DNA of 32,519 nt, from contig JAFGWM010000047.1 of NCBI GenBank assembly GCA_016937155.1, forward strand, positions 1-32,519. Reading direction: 5' to 3'. Position numbers and translations under genes: made by a program. This document shows, piece after piece, positions 3,932-18,389 of the stretch. Below the pieces are notes generated by a model that was given only the letters and a program-made list of their open reading frames with translations, was not told the origin of the DNA and made no database searches. How positions within the stretch are numbered: position 1 is the first letter of the stretch; each line of letters begins with the position of its first letter. The DNA comes from Deltaproteobacteria bacterium (GTDB lineage: Bacteria; Myxococcota_A; Polyangia; HGW-17).

Positions 3932-6184
3932 TTATTCTGATTCAACCTTAAACTTTTTAAGGAGGGCAGCGCTGACCTTCTTTGTCATTCCCAGTTCAAG
4001 CATTAAAAACGCATATTCTTCGGCTGTGTTTTTTATTCTTTTTGATATTTTATCGCCGCCGCCATGTCCGGATTTCGCGTTGATCCTGAGGATAACAGGA
4101 TTTTTAGAAACACTGGCCCACTGGATAGCAGCGGTAAATTTACGAGCGTGCATTGGATCCACTCTGTCGTCACTGTCTGCGCTGCTCATGAGAAGGGCAG
4201 GATATTTAATGCCGTGTCTGATCTTATGGTATGGACTGTAATTATAAAGTGCAGCAAAGTGTTCAGGATTTTGTGGATCCCCATACTCACTGATCCATGT
4301 TTTACCGGAGCCAAATAGTGTATATCTAACCATATCAAGAAGCGGAACATGACATGACACTGCTTTAAAAAGGGACGGTCTCTGTGTCATTGCGGCACCA
4401 ACAAGAAGACCGCCGTTGGAGCCACCCCGTATAGCCAGTTTTTTGGGGCTTGTGTATTTTTCTCTGATAAGATACTCGGCGGCAGCTATAAAATCATCAA
4501 ATACATTCTGTTTGTTCGTAAGCATTCCAGCTTTATGCCATTTTTCGCCATACTCTCCACCACCCCTCAGATTAGGGATAGCAATGGAACCTCCGTTTTC
4601 AAGCCAGACAATTCGGGATGAACTGAAAATTGGAGTAAGACTGACATTGAACCCCCCATAGCCATAAAGGATGAATGGATTGGAACCATCTTTTTTCAGC
4701 CCTTTCTTATGAATTATAAACATTGAAATATCGGTTCCATCCTTTGATTTATATTTCACCTGCTCTGTTGTGTAAGGGGATGGATCAAAGGGTATTTTAG
4801 CACTGCTGTATTCCTTGGTGGCAGCAGTTTTTGTATCTATCTCAAATGCCTTTTTAGGACTTGAGAATGAACTGTAAGTGAAATAGGCTTTTTCCAGTTT
4901 AGGATCTCCATTAATACCATGTACAGTACCAATGCCAGGCAGTTTAATCTGAGTACGGTTTCCACCGTTAAGATCAGTTATCTCGAGTCTGGAGGAAGCC
5001 TGTCTTAGCCAGTCGAGAAGTATCCTGTTTCCAGCTATCGAAAATCCCTGCAGAACACTGTGTGGATCCTCAGGAATGAGCTTCTTCCAGTATTTTCTCG
5101 CAGTTCTGTGGGGCGTTGTAACTAAAAGCTGGTATTTGGGAGCACCGTTATTGGTTCGTATATAGAATTTCCCCTTCCAGTATGTAACATCGTACATATA
5201 GTTTGTGTTAACTGCTAGAGGTTTCCATCTTCCCCCGTAAGGAGAGCGGAAAAATACATCAACATTTGTCCATCCGAATTGAACATAAGAAATGAGATAT
5301 TTTCCGTCACGGGAAATTTCCACTCCAACGAAACGCTTGGGATCTCCGGTTTTTTGTAAAACAAGTTTATCCTTGGCCCATGGCTTACCGATACGGTGAT
5401 AATACCCGGCAGCATGTCCTGGAAGCTCACTGGGATTAATTTTCTTATCAGTAGGGAGCCTGATATAATAAAAACCTTTGCCGTGGGGATCCCATGAGGG
5501 ATATGCGTATTTGCACCCTGGAATTTCTTCCCCTTCAAGATCTGTTCCCTTTTCAACATTTCTTATGCGGATAACGGCACTGTCCGCATTATTTCTGCTT
5601 AACTTGTATGCTGCAAGTTTTCCATCATGGCTGACAAAAATACCCTTAATGCTTAAGCTTCCATCCTCACTCATTGTGTTGGGATCCAGAAGAACCTTAG
5701 GTGTTCCAGTTTCTCCCTCCTGCCAGTAATATACAACTTTATCCTTCATCGCATGCTGCTTATGGAAGAAAAATCTATTTCCCCTTTTCACTGGTGCACT
5801 GGTGAAATCAATATAAAGAAGTTTGTTCAGTCGGGCCTCAATTTTCTTGATTTCAGGAAGTCTGGAAAGATACTTTTTTGCAAAATTATTCTGTTCATCC
5901 ATCCAGTGTCTGGTTTCCGGGTTTTTAAGGTCCTCCAGCCATCGGTATGGATCCTTAACTGTAACTCCATGGAGAGTATCTGCTGTGGCTTCACGCCTGG
6001 TATTTAGCTGGATATAGTTTACAGGATTTGTCTGTTTGTTGTCTCCAGTGTTTTTACCAGCTGTTTTGTCATCTCCGGCATTGTTTACTTGGGGAATAGC
6101 GGGTGGACCGCAACTTATCAGGCCAATGGAAACGACGGTAAATAAAACATAACTTTTGAATTGAAATAAAAATTTTGTAATCAT
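3932..6184 (-). CDS. Prolyl oligopeptidase family serine peptidase (S9A), lipoprotein
   Basis: The 750-residue enzyme should cleave short peptides after proline. Unlike the classical cytosolic enzyme it carries a lipoprotein signal ending LISC (Cys25), so it is predicted to be envelope-anchored. Residues about 60-480 form the beta-propeller and start with the YRWLEDLKNPET segment typical of S9A. Residues about 500-750 are the alpha/beta-hydrolase domain, with RGGSNGG (Ser589), the ADSDDRVDP segment (Asp672/Asp673) and SGHGGG (His707). The catalytic triad is therefore complete. A low-complexity linker rich in Asn, Asp and Lys follows the lipidated Cys. No strong Shine-Dalgarno precedes the ATG. 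The 280-base leader contains an inverted repeat and a structured RNA candidate. Confidence 0.93.
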   Translation of the reverse strand: MITKFLFQFKSYVLFTVVSIGLISCGPPAIPQVNNAGDDKTAGKNTGDNKQTNPVNYIQLNTRREATADTLHGVTVKDPYRWLEDLKNPETRHWMDEQNNFAKKYLSRLPEIKKIEARLNKLLYIDFTSAPVKRGNRFFFHKQHAMKDKVVYYWQEGETGTPKVLLDPNTMSEDGSLSIKGIFVSHDGKLAAYKLSRNNADSAVIRIRNVEKGTDLEGEEIPGCKYAYPSWDPHGKGFYYIRLPTDKKINPSELPGHAAGYYHRIGKPWAKDKLVLQKTGDPKRFVGVEISRDGKYLISYVQFGWTNVDVFFRSPYGGRWKPLAVNTNYMYDVTYWKGKFYIRTNNGAPKYQLLVTTPHRTARKYWKKLIPEDPHSVLQGFSIAGNRILLDWLRQASSRLEITDLNGGNRTQIKLPGIGTVHGINGDPKLEKAYFTYSSFSSPKKAFEIDTKTAATKEYSSAKIPFDPSPYTTEQVKYKSKDGTDISMFIIHKKGLKKDGSNPFILYGYGGFNVSLTPIFSSSRIVWLENGGSIAIPNLRGGGEYGEKWHKAGMLTNKQNVFDDFIAAAEYLIREKYTSPKKLAIRGGSNGGLLVGAAMTQRPSLFKAVSCHVPLLDMVRYTLFGSGKTWISEYGDPQNPEHFAALYNYSPYHKIRHGIKYPALLMSSADSDDRVDPMHARKFTAAIQWASVSKNPVILRINAKSGHGGGDKISKRIKNTAEEYAFLMLELGMTKKVSAALLKKFKVESE

Positions 6185-6244
6185 GCGGAGAGACTAGCAA
6201 AAACAGTGTCGATCGTTAAGTATTTTTTCTGTTTTACCATCTGA

Positions 6245-6278
6245 ATTCAGGTGATTTGTCGAATTCCAAAACCTGAAT
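6245..6278. repeat. 8-bp inverted repeat upstream of the S9A peptidase
   Basis: ATTCAGGT (6245-6252) and ACCTGAAT (6271-6278) are perfect complements separated by 18 bases. The left arm overlaps a palindrome CTGAATTCAG (6241-6250), and a second GAATTC lies in the spacer. It sits 60-95 bases upstream of the peptidase ATG, where an operator or leader hairpin would be expected. No regulator family is recognised. Confidence 0.35.
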
Positions 6279-6318
6279 AAAACAAAAATGTGAAAAAAAT
6301 TAATTTTTTATTTAATAT

Positions 6319-6344
6319 TAAAAAAATACTACCGATTGGTAAGT
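6319..6344 (-). terminator. Possible - strand terminator
   Basis: On the - strand a short hairpin with one bulge (ACTTACC paired with GGTAGT, loop AATC) is followed by seven T (6320-6326 on +). It lies after the two large stem-loops downstream of the RCC1 gene and could end that transcript before the peptidase gene. The stem is short, so this is weak. Confidence 0.3.
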
Positions 6345-6457
6345 GTGAACGGGAAACAGGGTTTCTCCTCCCTCAATCAGCCTGTTTTCCGTCTCAAGGC
6401 GGCGGTGGAAATCCCCTCCTCACCAGTAACAAACCTTCCACCGCCGAATCTTTTTTC
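6328..6457 (+). ncRNA. Candidate small RNA with two anti-Shine-Dalgarno (CUCCUC) loops
   Basis: Two strong stem-loops lie in tandem. Stem 1 pairs 6349-6360 with 6381-6392 (12 bp, one G-U) and exposes a 20-base loop containing CTCCTCCC (6365-6372). Stem 2 pairs 6400-6410 with 6436-6446 (11 bp, perfect) and exposes a 25-base loop containing CCCCTCCTC (6413-6421). A run of six T (6451-6456) follows stem 2, giving an intrinsic terminator on the + strand. A small hairpin at 6328-6344 may form the 5' end. C-rich loops complementary to ribosome-binding sites are the hallmark of several known trans-acting sRNA groups, for example the CcsR/cuckoo RNAs of alphaproteobacteria and RsaE-type RNAs of Firmicutes. 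This is analogy of architecture, not shown homology. No good promoter was found in the AT-rich DNA upstream. On the - strand the loops would read GGAGG, so an alternative is a leader or CsrA-type site. Confidence 0.5.
6400..6457 (+). terminator. Intrinsic terminator, + strand
   Basis: An 11-bp GC-rich perfect stem (6400-6410 with 6436-6446) is followed by AATC and then TTTTTT at 6451-6456. The large C-rich loop is unusual for a plain terminator. It stops just before the stop codon of the convergent RCC1 gene (6464-6466), so it fits the end of a + strand transcript such as the small RNA candidate. Confidence 0.55.
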
Positions 6458-6463
6458 AGAATA

Positions 6464-8413
6464 TCAGAATACAGGATCATGTATGTAAGTGGGAACGTCA
6501 ATGGTGGAAGGTGCGAGTCTGCCACACTGGTATTTATAGTTGTCACCCCAACACCACAATCGCCTTGAAGAGTCAATGGCGCATGTGTTTTTCCATCTGC
6601 TATGACCAAGTTGAGTGAAGACTATATTCCCTAATGTGTAACTCAATGCAGGAGTATTTCTTGAATCAGTTGTATTCAGCCCCAGTTGTCCGAGGCTGTC
6701 AGAACCCCAACAGTAAATTTTCCCGTTTTCCGAAGTCAGCGCACAGGAGTGATTAAATCCAGTTATTATTTGAGAAAACAATATACTTGAAGATAATGAA
6801 ACCGGTGTTGGAACTACATAATTTGTGTTATCAGCAGTTCCCAGTTCCCCATAAGCGTTCCAACCCCAGCAGTAAGCGCGGCCATTAGTACCGATCGCGC
6901 AACTGTGTCCATGATTTGATGAAATATCCACAAAAACCGCACCCGGATTAATTGCAGTTACAGGGGTATTTGTATCCGCTGTGTCATTGTTTCCAAGTTG
7001 ACCATTATTGTTCCACCCCCAGCATAGAATTTCTCCAGACTGGTTTAATCCACATGTATGATTACCACCTGCGCTGACTTTAGTAAAAATCAGAGTTTCA
7101 ATTTTTGCAGGTGGTAAAGTGTTTTCTTCACTACCCACTCCAAGTTGGCCATAGTCATTGTTTCCCCAGCACCAGACACTGCCAGAAGAATCAATGATGC
7201 AGCAGTGCTCAGTTCCACAACTTATATCCGCAGCCATTATGTAATCCGGCAAATCAACAATCCCCGGATCTGCATATTCAGGTAGAGTTCTTGAAGCGCT
7301 CCCAAGTTGATACACGGTATTGGAACCCCAGCACCAAACATGTCCTGCGGTGTCGAGTGCACATGTGTGATTAATTCCTGAACTCAATTTAATAAAACTG
7401 ATTCCCTCCGGCTGATTAACCATAAGTGGAGTACTGGAATGCTGTAGTGTATTACCGAGCTGGGAATGGTTGTTGTCTCCCCAACACCAGGCCTGCTGAT
7501 TCAAATCAATACCACAGGAATGCTCCATTCCTTCGCTTACATCAAGGAAGAGAAAGCCGTTGCAGTCACTGAAATCCGCAACACATTCATTGCAGACATA
7601 TGTTCCTGCAATGAATGATGATGCCTCACAACTGAAGTTATCAGGATTTGATGGTTCGCAGGATTCTTCGAATTCCTCCTGAACAATTCCGTCCCCACAG
7701 AACTTACAATCTGCAAGTTTGTATGTGCAGTCACTTTTACAGGTTAAATATGAATTTTCATAATAGTAAACGGGATCAAGAGAGTTGCAGTTTGTAATTC
7801 CGTTAAGTTCATCACCATCACACTGCTCATAATAATTTATCTGAATTTCACCATCCCCGCATTTTCCCCATGTCTCACAGTTTGATGTGTCTAGTCTGCA
7901 GGTGTCGGTTGTGCAGAAGAGTTCTCCTCCGTAATAACCCAATGATATGCATGAATTTTCATTCATATTTCCAGAATCACATTCTTCATTTCCAGTTATT
8001 TCCCCATCACCACAGTCACTGCATCCGGATAGATCAAAAGTACATTCACTGGTGCATCCAATATTTCCGGTTTCAAAACCGAGATCGTCACAACTTACCC
8101 CATTAAATGATGTTCCGTCACAATCCTCAAATTCAGCGTCAACAAATCCATCTCCGCATTTTCCGGCTGCTTCACAACTACTCAGGTCAAACATGCAGTC
8201 AGAGTTACATTTTAATTCAGCATTATTGAATCCAAGTGAAGCACAACTTGTATTGTCAAGATCATCACCATCGCAATCTTCCCCCAGATCGATGGTTCCG
8301 TTACCACAGGAGGAAATTTCAGGAGAATCATCACACCCTTCAAAGACGATTAACAATAGAACTGTTGAAGCAAAAATAACAAATCCTGTAATTGCAGAAT
8401 ATCGTTTTTTCAT
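6464..8413 (-). CDS. RCC1-repeat lipoprotein with myxobacterial-type Cys repeats (copy 1)
   Basis: A 649-residue surface lipoprotein. The signal ends IVFEGC (Cys27) and is followed by Asp-Asp-Ser. Residues about 36-283 hold five tandem disulfide repeats beginning CGNG or CGDG, each with a later CDG/CD-type Cys and a terminal DxSxC. From about residue 290 to the end are seven RCC1-type repeats, each with a core close to xCWGxNxxGQLG; seven repeats make one complete beta-propeller. RCC1 propellers serve protein-protein or ligand binding; no enzymatic role is suggested. AAGGA lies 13 bases before the ATG. It is downstream of the deacetylase gene (104-base gap) and is a paralogue of the gene at 23784-25646. 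The ligand is unknown. Confidence 0.9.
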   Translation of the reverse strand: MKKRYSAITGFVIFASTVLLLIVFEGCDDSPEISSCGNGTIDLGEDCDGDDLDNTSCASLGFNNAELKCNSDCMFDLSSCEAAGKCGDGFVDAEFEDCDGTSFNGVSCDDLGFETGNIGCTSECTFDLSGCSDCGDGEITGNEECDSGNMNENSCISLGYYGGELFCTTDTCRLDTSNCETWGKCGDGEIQINYYEQCDGDELNGITNCNSLDPVYYYENSYLTCKSDCTYKLADCKFCGDGIVQEEFEESCEPSNPDNFSCEASSFIAGTYVCNECVADFSDCNGFLFLDVSEGMEHSCGIDLNQQAWCWGDNNHSQLGNTLQHSSTPLMVNQPEGISFIKLSSGINHTCALDTAGHVWCWGSNTVYQLGSASRTLPEYADPGIVDLPDYIMAADISCGTEHCCIIDSSGSVWCWGNNDYGQLGVGSEENTLPPAKIETLIFTKVSAGGNHTCGLNQSGEILCWGWNNNGQLGNNDTADTNTPVTAINPGAVFVDISSNHGHSCAIGTNGRAYCWGWNAYGELGTADNTNYVVPTPVSLSSSILFSQIITGFNHSCALTSENGKIYCWGSDSLGQLGLNTTDSRNTPALSYTLGNIVFTQLGHSRWKNTCAIDSSRRLWCWGDNYKYQCGRLAPSTIDVPTYIHDPVF

Positions 8414-11799: not shown

Positions 11800-13260
11800 A
11801 TGATGAAGAATCTTTTTTTCACTTTGTTTTTATTTTCCAATCTCATAATTATCTCCGGTTGTGATGATGATTCCACTACTTCCTTTGGGGAGCCGTGTGA
11901 CGAAAACTCTGTTTGTGAGGGAGTCTGCAATCTTGGACTTCCTGAGGGTATGTGCACCGAAGTTTGCAGTGATACCCAGCCTTGTTCCAAAGGACTGTGT
12001 GTTGAATTCAATGCAGATGAATCCTACTGTATGCCCCAGTGTGAGGATAATGAAAACTGCCGTGAAGGTTATTCCTGTATTGATTATTTTTGTGCACCCA
12101 AACAGGGAGCGGGTAGCAGATGTGATGATAATGCCGACTGCCTTGACTGTACGGAAGACGAAAATTGTCCTGATGGACTTACGCAGGAATGCCGCGAAAA
12201 TGTATGTTCCTATGAGTGCACAGATCAGGATCAGTGTCCTGATGGAACAGTATGTGCTCTAAGTGGAACCAGTTACTGGTGTGTAGGTATTTACTTCCAG
12301 CAGGGAGATGGAACAGCAGGGGAAAGTTGTGCTGTTTCTGATTGCAGTTCGGGATTCAGTTGCATTACTGATTTTGAGAGAGCGGATCCTACACCATTTT
12401 GTTCCAACGAATGTATTGATTCCAGAGAATGTCCCCCTGACATGGTCTGCAGACCATATGGATCAAATACCAAATCATGGTGTATCCCTAGGGCTTACTG
12501 TGAAGGCTGTGATATGGATTTTCAGTGTGGGTATGATCAGGATGCCTGTCTTAACTATGGTGATGTAAATGGTTCCTTCTGTTCCAGTCAGTGTGATGAA
12601 GCTGTTCCAACTTCCTGTGGCCCGGATTCTACATGTTCAGAAGTGTTTTTCTGTCCGGACAGGGGGCAGCATGTTCTTGACTGTGAAAATGAGTGTCCCG
12701 AAGGCTGTGCTCTCACTACAGCATCCATATATCAGTGTGTTAAATCATATGGCTCCTGTGTTGGTGGTGGTGAAGAGTGCAGTCCATGTGAATATGATGA
12801 ACAGTGTAATGATGGCAGTGAATGTGTATTCTCCAGTCTGACCGGTAACCGTGTTTGCGCAATAAGTTGTGAAAATTTTAGTGACTGTGGTGATACAATG
12901 ATTTGTACTGAGCTCTCGGATGGTACAAAATACTGTCTTCCCCGAACTGGTGAATGCTCAAATCCTTCGGGGGAACTGGGAACATGCCAGATATGCAGTG
13001 AAAATGCTGATTGTATGAATGGTGCCTGCCTTACACTTCCAGGCGATACAACGGGATTTAGTTACTGTCTTGATTTTTGTGACGGAGGTGCTTCATGTGA
13101 TGGATACAGTGAATGCACCAGTCTTGATATGGGGGGTGTATCGGTTGACGTATGTGTGATGACCACTGCTGTGGAAAGCTGTGTTAACTATCTGGAATGT
13201 CTGGATATCTGTCCTACAGGTCCGGGTGAATGCACAGATGGACCTTCATACTGTCAGTAA
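11800..13260 (+). CDS. Cys-rich lipoprotein
   Basis: A 486-residue lipoprotein with about 69 Cys (about 14%), clearly a disulfide-stabilised extracytoplasmic protein. The signal ends IIISGC (Cys21), followed by Asp-Asp-Asp. The mature chain is a string of loosely repeated short units such as C..D.DCP.G..C and C...C.....C, resembling EGF-like/EB-module repeats without a firm match. Two adjacent ATGs (11800, 11803) both fit the TGGAG at 11791-11795; the same TGGAGTTTTATG context precedes the kinase gene at 23708. It lies 23 bases after the permease and its stop is followed directly by the Shine-Dalgarno of the regulator gene, so it is in the same transcript. The function is probably surface binding or structural; it is not established. 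Confidence 0.85.
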   Translation: MMKNLFFTLFLFSNLIIISGCDDDSTTSFGEPCDENSVCEGVCNLGLPEGMCTEVCSDTQPCSKGLCVEFNADESYCMPQCEDNENCREGYSCIDYFCAPKQGAGSRCDDNADCLDCTEDENCPDGLTQECRENVCSYECTDQDQCPDGTVCALSGTSYWCVGIYFQQGDGTAGESCAVSDCSSGFSCITDFERADPTPFCSNECIDSRECPPDMVCRPYGSNTKSWCIPRAYCEGCDMDFQCGYDQDACLNYGDVNGSFCSSQCDEAVPTSCGPDSTCSEVFFCPDRGQHVLDCENECPEGCALTTASIYQCVKSYGSCVGGGEECSPCEYDEQCNDGSECVFSSLTGNRVCAISCENFSDCGDTMICTELSDGTKYCLPRTGECSNPSGELGTCQICSENADCMNGACLTLPGDTTGFSYCLDFCDGGASCDGYSECTSLDMGGVSVDVCVMTTAVESCVNYLECLDICPTGPGECTDGPSYCQ

Positions 13261-15975: not shown

Positions 15976-18389
15976 CAGCTGTTTTATTCGTTTTACTTAT
16001 GTCACAGACTGCTCCGGTTAAATGCGGGGGTTCTTATTCTGTGGATATCAGAAATGATGCTATTACACTTTTCAGGAACGGAAAAAAAATAAATACAGGT
16101 AAAAAACCAGTAAATCTGAGAACTCTTAAAACCTGTAATTATCAGAAAAAACTAAACATGCTTCGTCTGGATACTGAAAATACCGCATGGATATTTCATT
16201 CCGGGAAAAAAGAAATAGTTTTCAGACGTGCAGTTTTTACAACCGGGGAAATGGCCGATGAAACAGGTCTAAAAATTGATTCCAAAACCGGAGATATTTA
16301 TCGTCAGAATGAGGAAACCAGGCTTTGTAACGGAATTGCTGTCTCTGTTGTACTGGAAAAGTGGAACAAAAATAAAGGTCAATATGAACCTCTAAATAAA
16401 GTATCAAGAATAAATCTTGAGAAAGTCCGAAAACTCAAGGCTGAAGCTTCTGTAATTACATCTGTAAATCCGATGCCCATGTTTCCATGGAGAGCAGACA
16501 TTATCAGTAGTGACATCAGAGCGGGAAGTGAAACTCCTTCTCCTGTGAAAATAGTAGATTCTGATGCAACCACTTCCTGGGTTGGAAAACTTGGAAAATA
16601 TTCATTCATTAATTTCTCGACAACTATCATGCCTTTTGGAGTCAAAACACTTAGAATTTTCCCTGGTAACTATGCTGATTTAAAATCACTGAAGAATTAT
16701 GCACGAATTAAATCCTTTTTTATTGTTACTGAAAAATCCGTATTCAAAGTGAATGTTCCATGGAAAAAACTGAACGCTTCCGCTCTCAAAACACCCTTCA
16801 TTGTTAATTTCCCCGAAGTTCAGAAGACAAAGTGTATTTCAGTTGTAATTGATACTCTGTCAACAGAGAAGAAACCATCTGGGTTTTCGGAATTCACTGT
16901 TTATACTTCCATAGACTATGAAAAAAATCCCATCAAGGGTATTTTGAATGCATTTTCAGAAGGAAAGCTTAGTCATGATAGAACACTGAAAATATTATCC
17001 AAAATCAATATCCGAAATATTGAAGAACAGTTGAAAATTACAACAGATCATAGAGAAAAGAAAATACTGATAGAGGCGGCTCTGCTCTCCGGGGATGAAC
17101 GATTTCTGGATCTGGCAGTAAGAGTTCTCGGATGGGCCGAAAATGAACTTCTTAGACTCACTGAAAAATATTTAATGAGTTCAAAAAGTACTTCAAGGCT
17201 GGAAAAACTTATTAAAGAAAAAAATATCGCAAAAGAATATGCTCTTAGGGCACTCGGTGTTTATGTGCAGCTTTCAAACAGTAATGTTGAACTTATCAGT
17301 GAATTTCTTGGAGCGGGAACCCGGAAGGATTATGAAATAAGAAAAAGACTCGAAAAATCAATACGAATTGAAAAACGGAAAGAGTTTATTGAGCGGTTAT
17401 GTAAAGTTTCTCATAATTCAGGAGCTTTTTACTGGCTGATGGCAAGATGGATTAAAAAAGACCGGAGTATAATCAAATCAGCATTAAAATGTCTTAATAC
17501 CACAAAGGTAACTAAATTATCGGCTCTATTGAGGTATCTGTATGCTGTAAGAATGACTTCTTCCCCTCAGATGGTATCAAAAGTATCCGCAATTTATAAC
17601 CAACATAAACTTGCAGTTGTCAAACTGGAATCTATCAGGACGCTTCTCGCTTTGGGAGATACCGGATTTGTTCTGAAAAGCTTCAATCCCTCTGATCCTG
17701 CACATGTTCTCACAATAGTCAGATACTGGCCGAAACCTGAATTCCCTGAAAAAGTTATGAGCATTTTTAATAACACGAGATGGGGAGTCCTGAAAAAAGC
17801 CTTTTTGATGAAAGCAGGGATGAACTGTTCAAATCAACTTGATGCAATGCTTATTAAAACTCTGGAATCAAGAGAGCGGGATCTTTACCCTCTTGTAACT
17901 ACATACTCATCTTCATGCAAAGTATCACAAACAGTTTATTCAAAAATGGCTGATGCAATGAAATCAGAGAAGGATCTTAGTATGTTCGCATTGCTGGGGG
18001 ATTCACTTTCAAAAAATCCCCAGAGAGGAATTGAGCAGCTCGTGCGTAATAAAACCGAAACAGTATGGAAATTACTGCAGAAAAAGGGAAATGAAGACAA
18101 GGAATACGCATTCACTCTTCTCATCAGAGCACTGTCCCAGTTTAATTCACCAAAAGATAATATCTTGTTTACAAATATCGCTTCAAATGAGGTTTCAAGG
18201 CCTATGCTTAGAGCTGCTGTTGATATTCTGGCTAAAAGATGCCCGACAGAGGTAATGAAGATAAAAGCTTCAGGCAAATTTTCATGGAGAGAGGAATATA
18301 TTCTTAATCTTAAAAAAATATGTTCATCCTCCAAAAAAATGCTAAAACCTTCCTTAGAACAGATTAAAAACAGAAGAGAAAAAAAATGA
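15972..18389 (+). CDS. Secreted protein: discoidin/NADase-type glycan-binding domain plus helical repeats
   Basis: An 805-residue protein of unknown function. ATG 15972 overlaps the previous stop (ATGA). The N-terminus is a short Sec-type signal (MTAVLFVLLMSQTAPVKCGG; the Cys is not in a clear lipobox). Residues about 171-317 resemble the NADase-type glycan-binding/discoidin-like fold: a DSDATTSWVG segment (family pattern DG..tTaW), then IRIFPGNYA-like and NYARIKSF-like strands. From about 325 to 790 the chain is almost all amphipathic helices rich in Lys, Leu and Glu, like HEAT/ARM repeats. The fold calls are by eye and only moderately firm. It probably works at the envelope with the neighbouring transpeptidase and lipoproteins. 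The next gene again overlaps by four bases. Confidence 0.75.
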   Translation: MTAVLFVLLMSQTAPVKCGGSYSVDIRNDAITLFRNGKKINTGKKPVNLRTLKTCNYQKKLNMLRLDTENTAWIFHSGKKEIVFRRAVFTTGEMADETGLKIDSKTGDIYRQNEETRLCNGIAVSVVLEKWNKNKGQYEPLNKVSRINLEKVRKLKAEASVITSVNPMPMFPWRADIISSDIRAGSETPSPVKIVDSDATTSWVGKLGKYSFINFSTTIMPFGVKTLRIFPGNYADLKSLKNYARIKSFFIVTEKSVFKVNVPWKKLNASALKTPFIVNFPEVQKTKCISVVIDTLSTEKKPSGFSEFTVYTSIDYEKNPIKGILNAFSEGKLSHDRTLKILSKINIRNIEEQLKITTDHREKKILIEAALLSGDERFLDLAVRVLGWAENELLRLTEKYLMSSKSTSRLEKLIKEKNIAKEYALRALGVYVQLSNSNVELISEFLGAGTRKDYEIRKRLEKSIRIEKRKEFIERLCKVSHNSGAFYWLMARWIKKDRSIIKSALKCLNTTKVTKLSALLRYLYAVRMTSSPQMVSKVSAIYNQHKLAVVKLESIRTLLALGDTGFVLKSFNPSDPAHVLTIVRYWPKPEFPEKVMSIFNNTRWGVLKKAFLMKAGMNCSNQLDAMLIKTLESRERDLYPLVTTYSSSCKVSQTVYSKMADAMKSEKDLSMFALLGDSLSKNPQRGIEQLVRNKTETVWKLLQKKGNEDKEYAFTLLIRALSQFNSPKDNILFTNIASNEVSRPMLRAAVDILAKRCPTEVMKIKASGKFSWREEYILNLKKICSSSKKMLKPSLEQIKNRREKK

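Follow-up and report, generated by a model that had tools for sequence, protein, structure and literature searches.

Tandem hairpins with C-rich loops in an intergenic gap: a candidate anti-Shine-Dalgarno small RNA and its probable relatives across the class

The gap at 6185-6463 of the window (the whole stretch of 32,519 nt analysed here) is flanked on the minus strand by genes for a prolyl oligopeptidase (3932-6184) and an RCC1-repeat protein (6464-8413), and it raises the question of whether the two stem-loops found in it belong to an RNA of their own and, if so, what their loops would bind. The original prediction had described a gap free of protein genes, with stems of 12 and 11 bp, C-rich loops and a T-run after the second stem, and each of these features is present (Table 1). 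There is no conserved reading frame in the gap; a small protein on either strand was considered and rejected, since the orthologue does not preserve the overlapping plus- and minus-strand ORFs.

Table 1. Coordinates of the features of the element in the window.
Feature	Position	Strand	Description or basis
Hairpin 1	6349..6392	+	stem 6349-6360/6381-6392, 12 bp with one G-U pair, 20-nt loop
Loop 1 motif CUCCUCCC	6365..6372	+	sits in block UCUCCUCCCUCAA, kept in the same-genus orthologue
Hairpin 2	6400..6446	+	stem 6400-6410/6436-6446, 11 bp perfect, G+C-rich, 25-nt loop
Loop 2 motif CCCCUCCUC	6413..6421	+	orthologue counterpart CUCUCCU
Second conserved block GUAAC[A/G]AACC, in loop 2	6426..6435	+	orthologue alignment
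Six T downstream of hairpin 2; probably an intrinsic terminator and the RNA 3' end	6451..6456	+	class relatives have the same T-run after their second hairpin
Extent matched by model R3 (window sequence not among its inputs)	6345..6455	+	covariance search
A/T-rich upstream region, expected promoter location	6286..6348	+	sequence inspection

Folding of 130 nt gave -42.5 kcal/mol with z = -3.7 for the plus strand, while the z-score of the minus strand is -1.5. Both loop motifs are unpaired in the ensemble with a probability of 0.94-0.99 (about 0.99 for CUCCUCCC). Two such loops had been judged hard to explain by chance, and it turned out that a pair of adjacent C-loop hairpins followed by a T-run occurs at a single site on both strands of 832 kb of this genome, namely the window element, and at zero sites in three dinucleotide-shuffled copies of the genome. 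We found no paralogue of the RNA in its own genome, and no known Rfam RNA, tRNA or tmRNA matched at the element. Neither a sigma-54 site nor a convincing sigma-70 site was found upstream. A simple terminator scan made no call at the element, and we regard the terminator as plausible rather than textbook because the T-run begins only after three further nucleotides (6447-6449) and a C beyond stem 2, and the loop of hairpin 2 measures 25 nt.

The orthologue, from the second genome of the genus (G001), lies at C63:38861-38970 on the minus strand, adjoining an HDAC gene that in the window is one gene away from the element. Stem 1 is nearly all replaced between the two genomes (CGGGAAACA..UGUUUUCCG in the window versus UGGAUGCAG..CUGCAUCCG in the orthologue), and in a manual alignment both genomes have standard pairs at all 11 aligned positions, 5 of which differ on both sides. 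The two genomes agree in the terminator T-run and in the blocks UCUCCUCCCUCAA and AGUAAC[A/G]AACC, so conservation is highest in the loops and lowest in stem 1, and the G-U pairs are consistent with an RNA of the plus strand. Both compensatory stem changes and conserved C-rich loops, the check proposed with the original prediction, were thus found. That stem 1 is rewritten yet paired, with the loop block and the T-run kept, indicates that the element is a real structured RNA read from the plus strand. In the taxonomic family, only the two genomes of the genus yielded the RNA, with none in G002-G007; the C-loop hairpin is absent from the loci downstream of HDAC in other genera of the family, and other genera of the order gave no good-scoring or convincing matches.

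What would such an RNA do? We consider it fairly likely that it acts in trans as a stand-alone sRNA independent of Hfq, with loops that pair with Shine-Dalgarno sites. An RNA of about 110-130 nt would be made from the plus strand, with its 3' end at the T-run near 6456, and two rigid hairpins would display the C-rich loops; these may pair with several mRNAs at their purine-rich ribosome-binding sites (AGGAG/GGAGG/GGAGA), and the pairing would block ribosome loading without Hfq. For the window RNA we infer transcription, translational repression and the identity of the mRNAs, and a block of translation at the Shine-Dalgarno site is taken as the most likely mode because it is the known mode of NfeR1/ar14 (PMC10746234). 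The Hfq gene was not detected in 13 of 13 genomes of the window's order (control detection, 5 of 14).

The loops had been predicted to be complementary to AGGAG-type sites, and this agrees with the Shine-Dalgarno consensus of this genome: the enriched 5-mers in 593 genes are AGGAG, GGAGG, GGAGA and GAGGT, and the window loops contain the complements of the former three. For loop 1, 130 genes offer a duplex of -10 kcal/mol or lower at positions -20..+3, compared with 37 at -70..-47. Shuffled loops of the same composition reached an equal start-site surplus in 2 of 60 cases for loop 1 and 1 of 60 for loop 2, and a match between loop and Shine-Dalgarno site would to some degree fit any C-rich loop. 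Two candidate target leaders were predicted, the genes being named by eye: GGGAGGAGAAA-AUG of a transporter-like gene (L200, minus strand near 12094) and GGGGAGGAGGAACAA-AUG of an RnfA-like gene (L206, plus strand near 7562). A lipoprotein-like gene (L204, plus strand near 18117) has a further candidate target start site, and about 10 or more nucleotides are complementary to loop 1 at the candidate start sites of all three genes. The window RNA would be an anti-Shine-Dalgarno hairpin-loop sRNA, as yet a candidate, outside Alphaproteobacteria and in a lineage without detected Hfq.

Covariance models were run on the genomes of the class. Model R1, made of two sequences (the window element and its orthologue), gave only two new matches across 318 class genomes. 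The R1 match in G055 (E 0.009) proved on inspection to consist of a terminator and two hairpins whose loops carry C-runs; R1 matches in G009 and G080 were rejected, as they have no C-loop hairpin pair and that in G080 lies inside coding sequence. A DNA search from the G055 element yielded further relatives, three of which, without the window or G001, make up model R2, and with E at most 0.05 this model matched 44 of the 318 genomes. About 40 class genomes have a similar layout, in which a terminator follows two hairpins with C6-C11 loops and with stems that vary and covary; tandem copies are frequent. The weakest R2 matches (L167, L176-L179) look coding-like or like GC-rich noise and were left out as members.

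For 39 R2 matches with E 5e-5 or better in fetched loci, an alignment was made, in which 96% of cells are paired and 21 of 21 pairs changed on both sides. None of 500 shuffles scored as high on any measure, and sliding of the partners abolishes the signal; the covariation score is 0.69 versus 0.20, a difference judged large in an alignment that was fitted to the model and so favours structure. All 39 relatives carry C6-C11 in both loops, though the model itself favours such loops. The stem cells hold 39 G-U versus 7 A-C, which fits the strand assigned to the window RNA. Among the 43 best-scoring matches, 24 carry, 9-16 nt ahead of hairpin 1, a sigma-54 site resembling TGGCACG-N4-TCGC[A/T]; chance, estimated from base frequencies, predicts well under one. 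Judged by its position, the site would start the RNA at hairpin 1. Rfam gave no match on 20 relative loci except two tRNA genes. No conserved neighbour gene was found among the relatives, as expected for a trans-acting RNA. Run on a phylum-wide sample, model R3 found extra members within the class, with two weak matches outside it. The search has uncovered a large, unnamed, multi-copy family of putative sRNAs in the class, many members of which have sigma-54 promoters. As for the binding partners of the oligo-C loops, G6 runs were considered as Shine-Dalgarno-like sites and rejected, since they are not enriched at the start sites of two oligo-C genomes (G177, G314).

These data bear on two other readings of the element. 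It could be no more than a bidirectional or redundant terminator serving the RCC1-repeat gene, which is convergent and has its stop at 6464, with the C-rich loops incidental; hairpin 2 indeed lies 18 nt past the stop of that gene on the minus strand, and at the orthologous locus in G001 the HDAC gene is likewise convergent. However, a terminator should keep its stems rather than its loops, the opposite of the pattern between the two genomes; the T-run serves the plus strand, on which no protein gene lies upstream, the minus-strand z-score is weak, and the RCC1 gene is missing at the orthologous place, so that we hold this reading to be very improbable. Nearly as improbable is a protein-binding sponge, in which the C-rich loops bind a C-tract-binding protein or the GGA loops of the minus strand titrate CsrA/RsmE. 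Similar loops repeated on variable stems are the layout of titrating RNAs, the loops of the relatives are pure C6-C11, with no enrichment of the matching G6 runs around start codons, and GGA is present in the minus-strand loops. Against this, the G-U excess and the T-run put the RNA on the plus strand, where the loops expose no GGA, which contradicts a CsrA-type sponge on the minus strand; the loops, besides, match Shine-Dalgarno sites in this genome, and we know of no C-tract-binding protein partner. The pairing of the loops with Shine-Dalgarno sites stays the preferred reading.

Whether the window RNA belongs to the class family is a separate matter. Model R3, built without the window and G001, scores the window element at 27.1 bits (E 2.5e-4 over 35.6 kb), whereas the next best hit reaches 8.9 bits, and it finds the G001 element in the right place at 21.1 bits. 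R2 gives the window element 23.2 bits, with the next best at about 8-9, and also matches G001; the window matches of both models are full length and in the correct place and strand. The argument for membership is in part circular, since it was R1, derived from the window element and its orthologue, that first picked up G055. Two family features are missing from the window RNA: its loops (CUCCUCCC, CCCCUCCUC) have no uninterrupted C6+ run, which all 39 relatives have in both loops, and it has no sigma-54 -24/-12 promoter at 9-16 nt before hairpin 1, a feature that is not universal in the family either. On balance the window RNA is probably a divergent member of the class-wide tandem C-loop hairpin family, and judging from the sequences common descent is likely.

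The rival to this family claim, and to it only, is that the window RNA and the oligo-C-loop RNAs of the class arose independently and converged on C-rich loops. The two missing features speak for it, as does the lack of matches in intermediate genera of the window's order, and convergence may well occur, given that the alphaproteobacterial ar14 has the same layout. Yet the match spans both hairpins, the linker and the terminator, the start of stem 2 (GGCGGC) is common to both groups, and the elements of two separate genomes of the genus are matched in the right place. We consider independent origin rather unlikely. The loop 2 block GUAAC[A/G]AACC was not seen in the class relatives.

Among known RNAs, the original prediction had pointed to CcsR/cuckoo, and the analogy stands for the architecture and fails for family membership. 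The ar14 RNAs (RF02344; Sinorhizobium NfeR1; SmelA075/SmelA099; "cuckoo") have tandem hairpins on variable stems with anti-Shine-Dalgarno loops CCUCCUCCC, and they are trans-acting and Hfq-independent, their redundant loops silencing mRNAs at the start site (PMC10746234, PMC3927594). The window RNA resembles them in its tandem hairpins with anti-Shine-Dalgarno-type loops, but ar14 is alphaproteobacterial and has three or four hairpins with exact CCUCCUCCC, whereas the window RNA has two, with CUCCUCCC and CCCCUCCUC; against RF02344 it scores 22.7 bits (threshold 58.8), with no match at gathering. We therefore liken it to ar14/cuckoo in its working and do not class it there, because score, hairpin number and exact motif all fail. 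CcsR1 (RF02791) likewise has CUCC-rich anti-Shine-Dalgarno loops in short hairpins, and the window RNA scores 16.5 bits against it (threshold 65.3). Its closer kin appear to be the unnamed class-wide oligo-C-loop RNAs, many with sigma-54 promoters. RepG of Helicobacter pylori has a C/U-rich loop, and to our knowledge no repeated C-loop layout; its target is a variable G-repeat in tlpB. The RepG loop targets this G-repeat in the mRNA leader (PMC8295292).

Another RNA to be compared is Pxr of Myxococcus and relatives, which is about 108 nt long and works without Hfq. A published probe implies CCCCCCACCCC in its stem-loop SL1 (PMC5568312), a C-to-A change in the SL1 loop abolishes function, and published primers point to GCGGCCCG/CGGGCCGC as a 3' stem, with CUUCUUUU behind it (PMC5684412). 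Judging from this probe and these primers, Pxr and the class relatives have in common a C-run (in SL1 of Pxr), a sigma-54 promoter (predicted in Pxr) and a GCGGCC terminator stem; relatives such as L160 have a Pxr-like 3' end, GGCCGCCUUCUUUU. Pxr differs in having three stem-loops, with no C-run in the SL3 loop, whereas the window RNA has two hairpins and no sigma-54 site. No pxr locus was found with the published probe pattern among the genomes searched. It is conceivable, and we put it forward tentatively, that the window RNA, the sigma-54-driven oligo-C-loop RNAs of the class and Pxr form one old sRNA superfamily rather than a recent invention of Cystobacterineae, the C-rich loops being the working part, shifted between oligo-C and anti-Shine-Dalgarno by lineage. 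If Pxr belongs here, the targets of this gate of fruiting-body development could be approached through what C-run loops bind.

Within the class family, four loci of genus g26 (L143, L144, L147 and L150) are without the sigma-54 site, and an additional C-run, CCCCCCACGTCCCC, precedes hairpin 1 there. At L190:1501-1697, L172:1078-1293 and L145:1501-1703, at least four consecutive C-loop hairpins on similar stems form array-like stretches. Five other loci (L160, L161, L133, L162 and L140) contain the gene as a tandem pair at a spacing of about 250 bp, and both copies have a sigma-54 site of their own.
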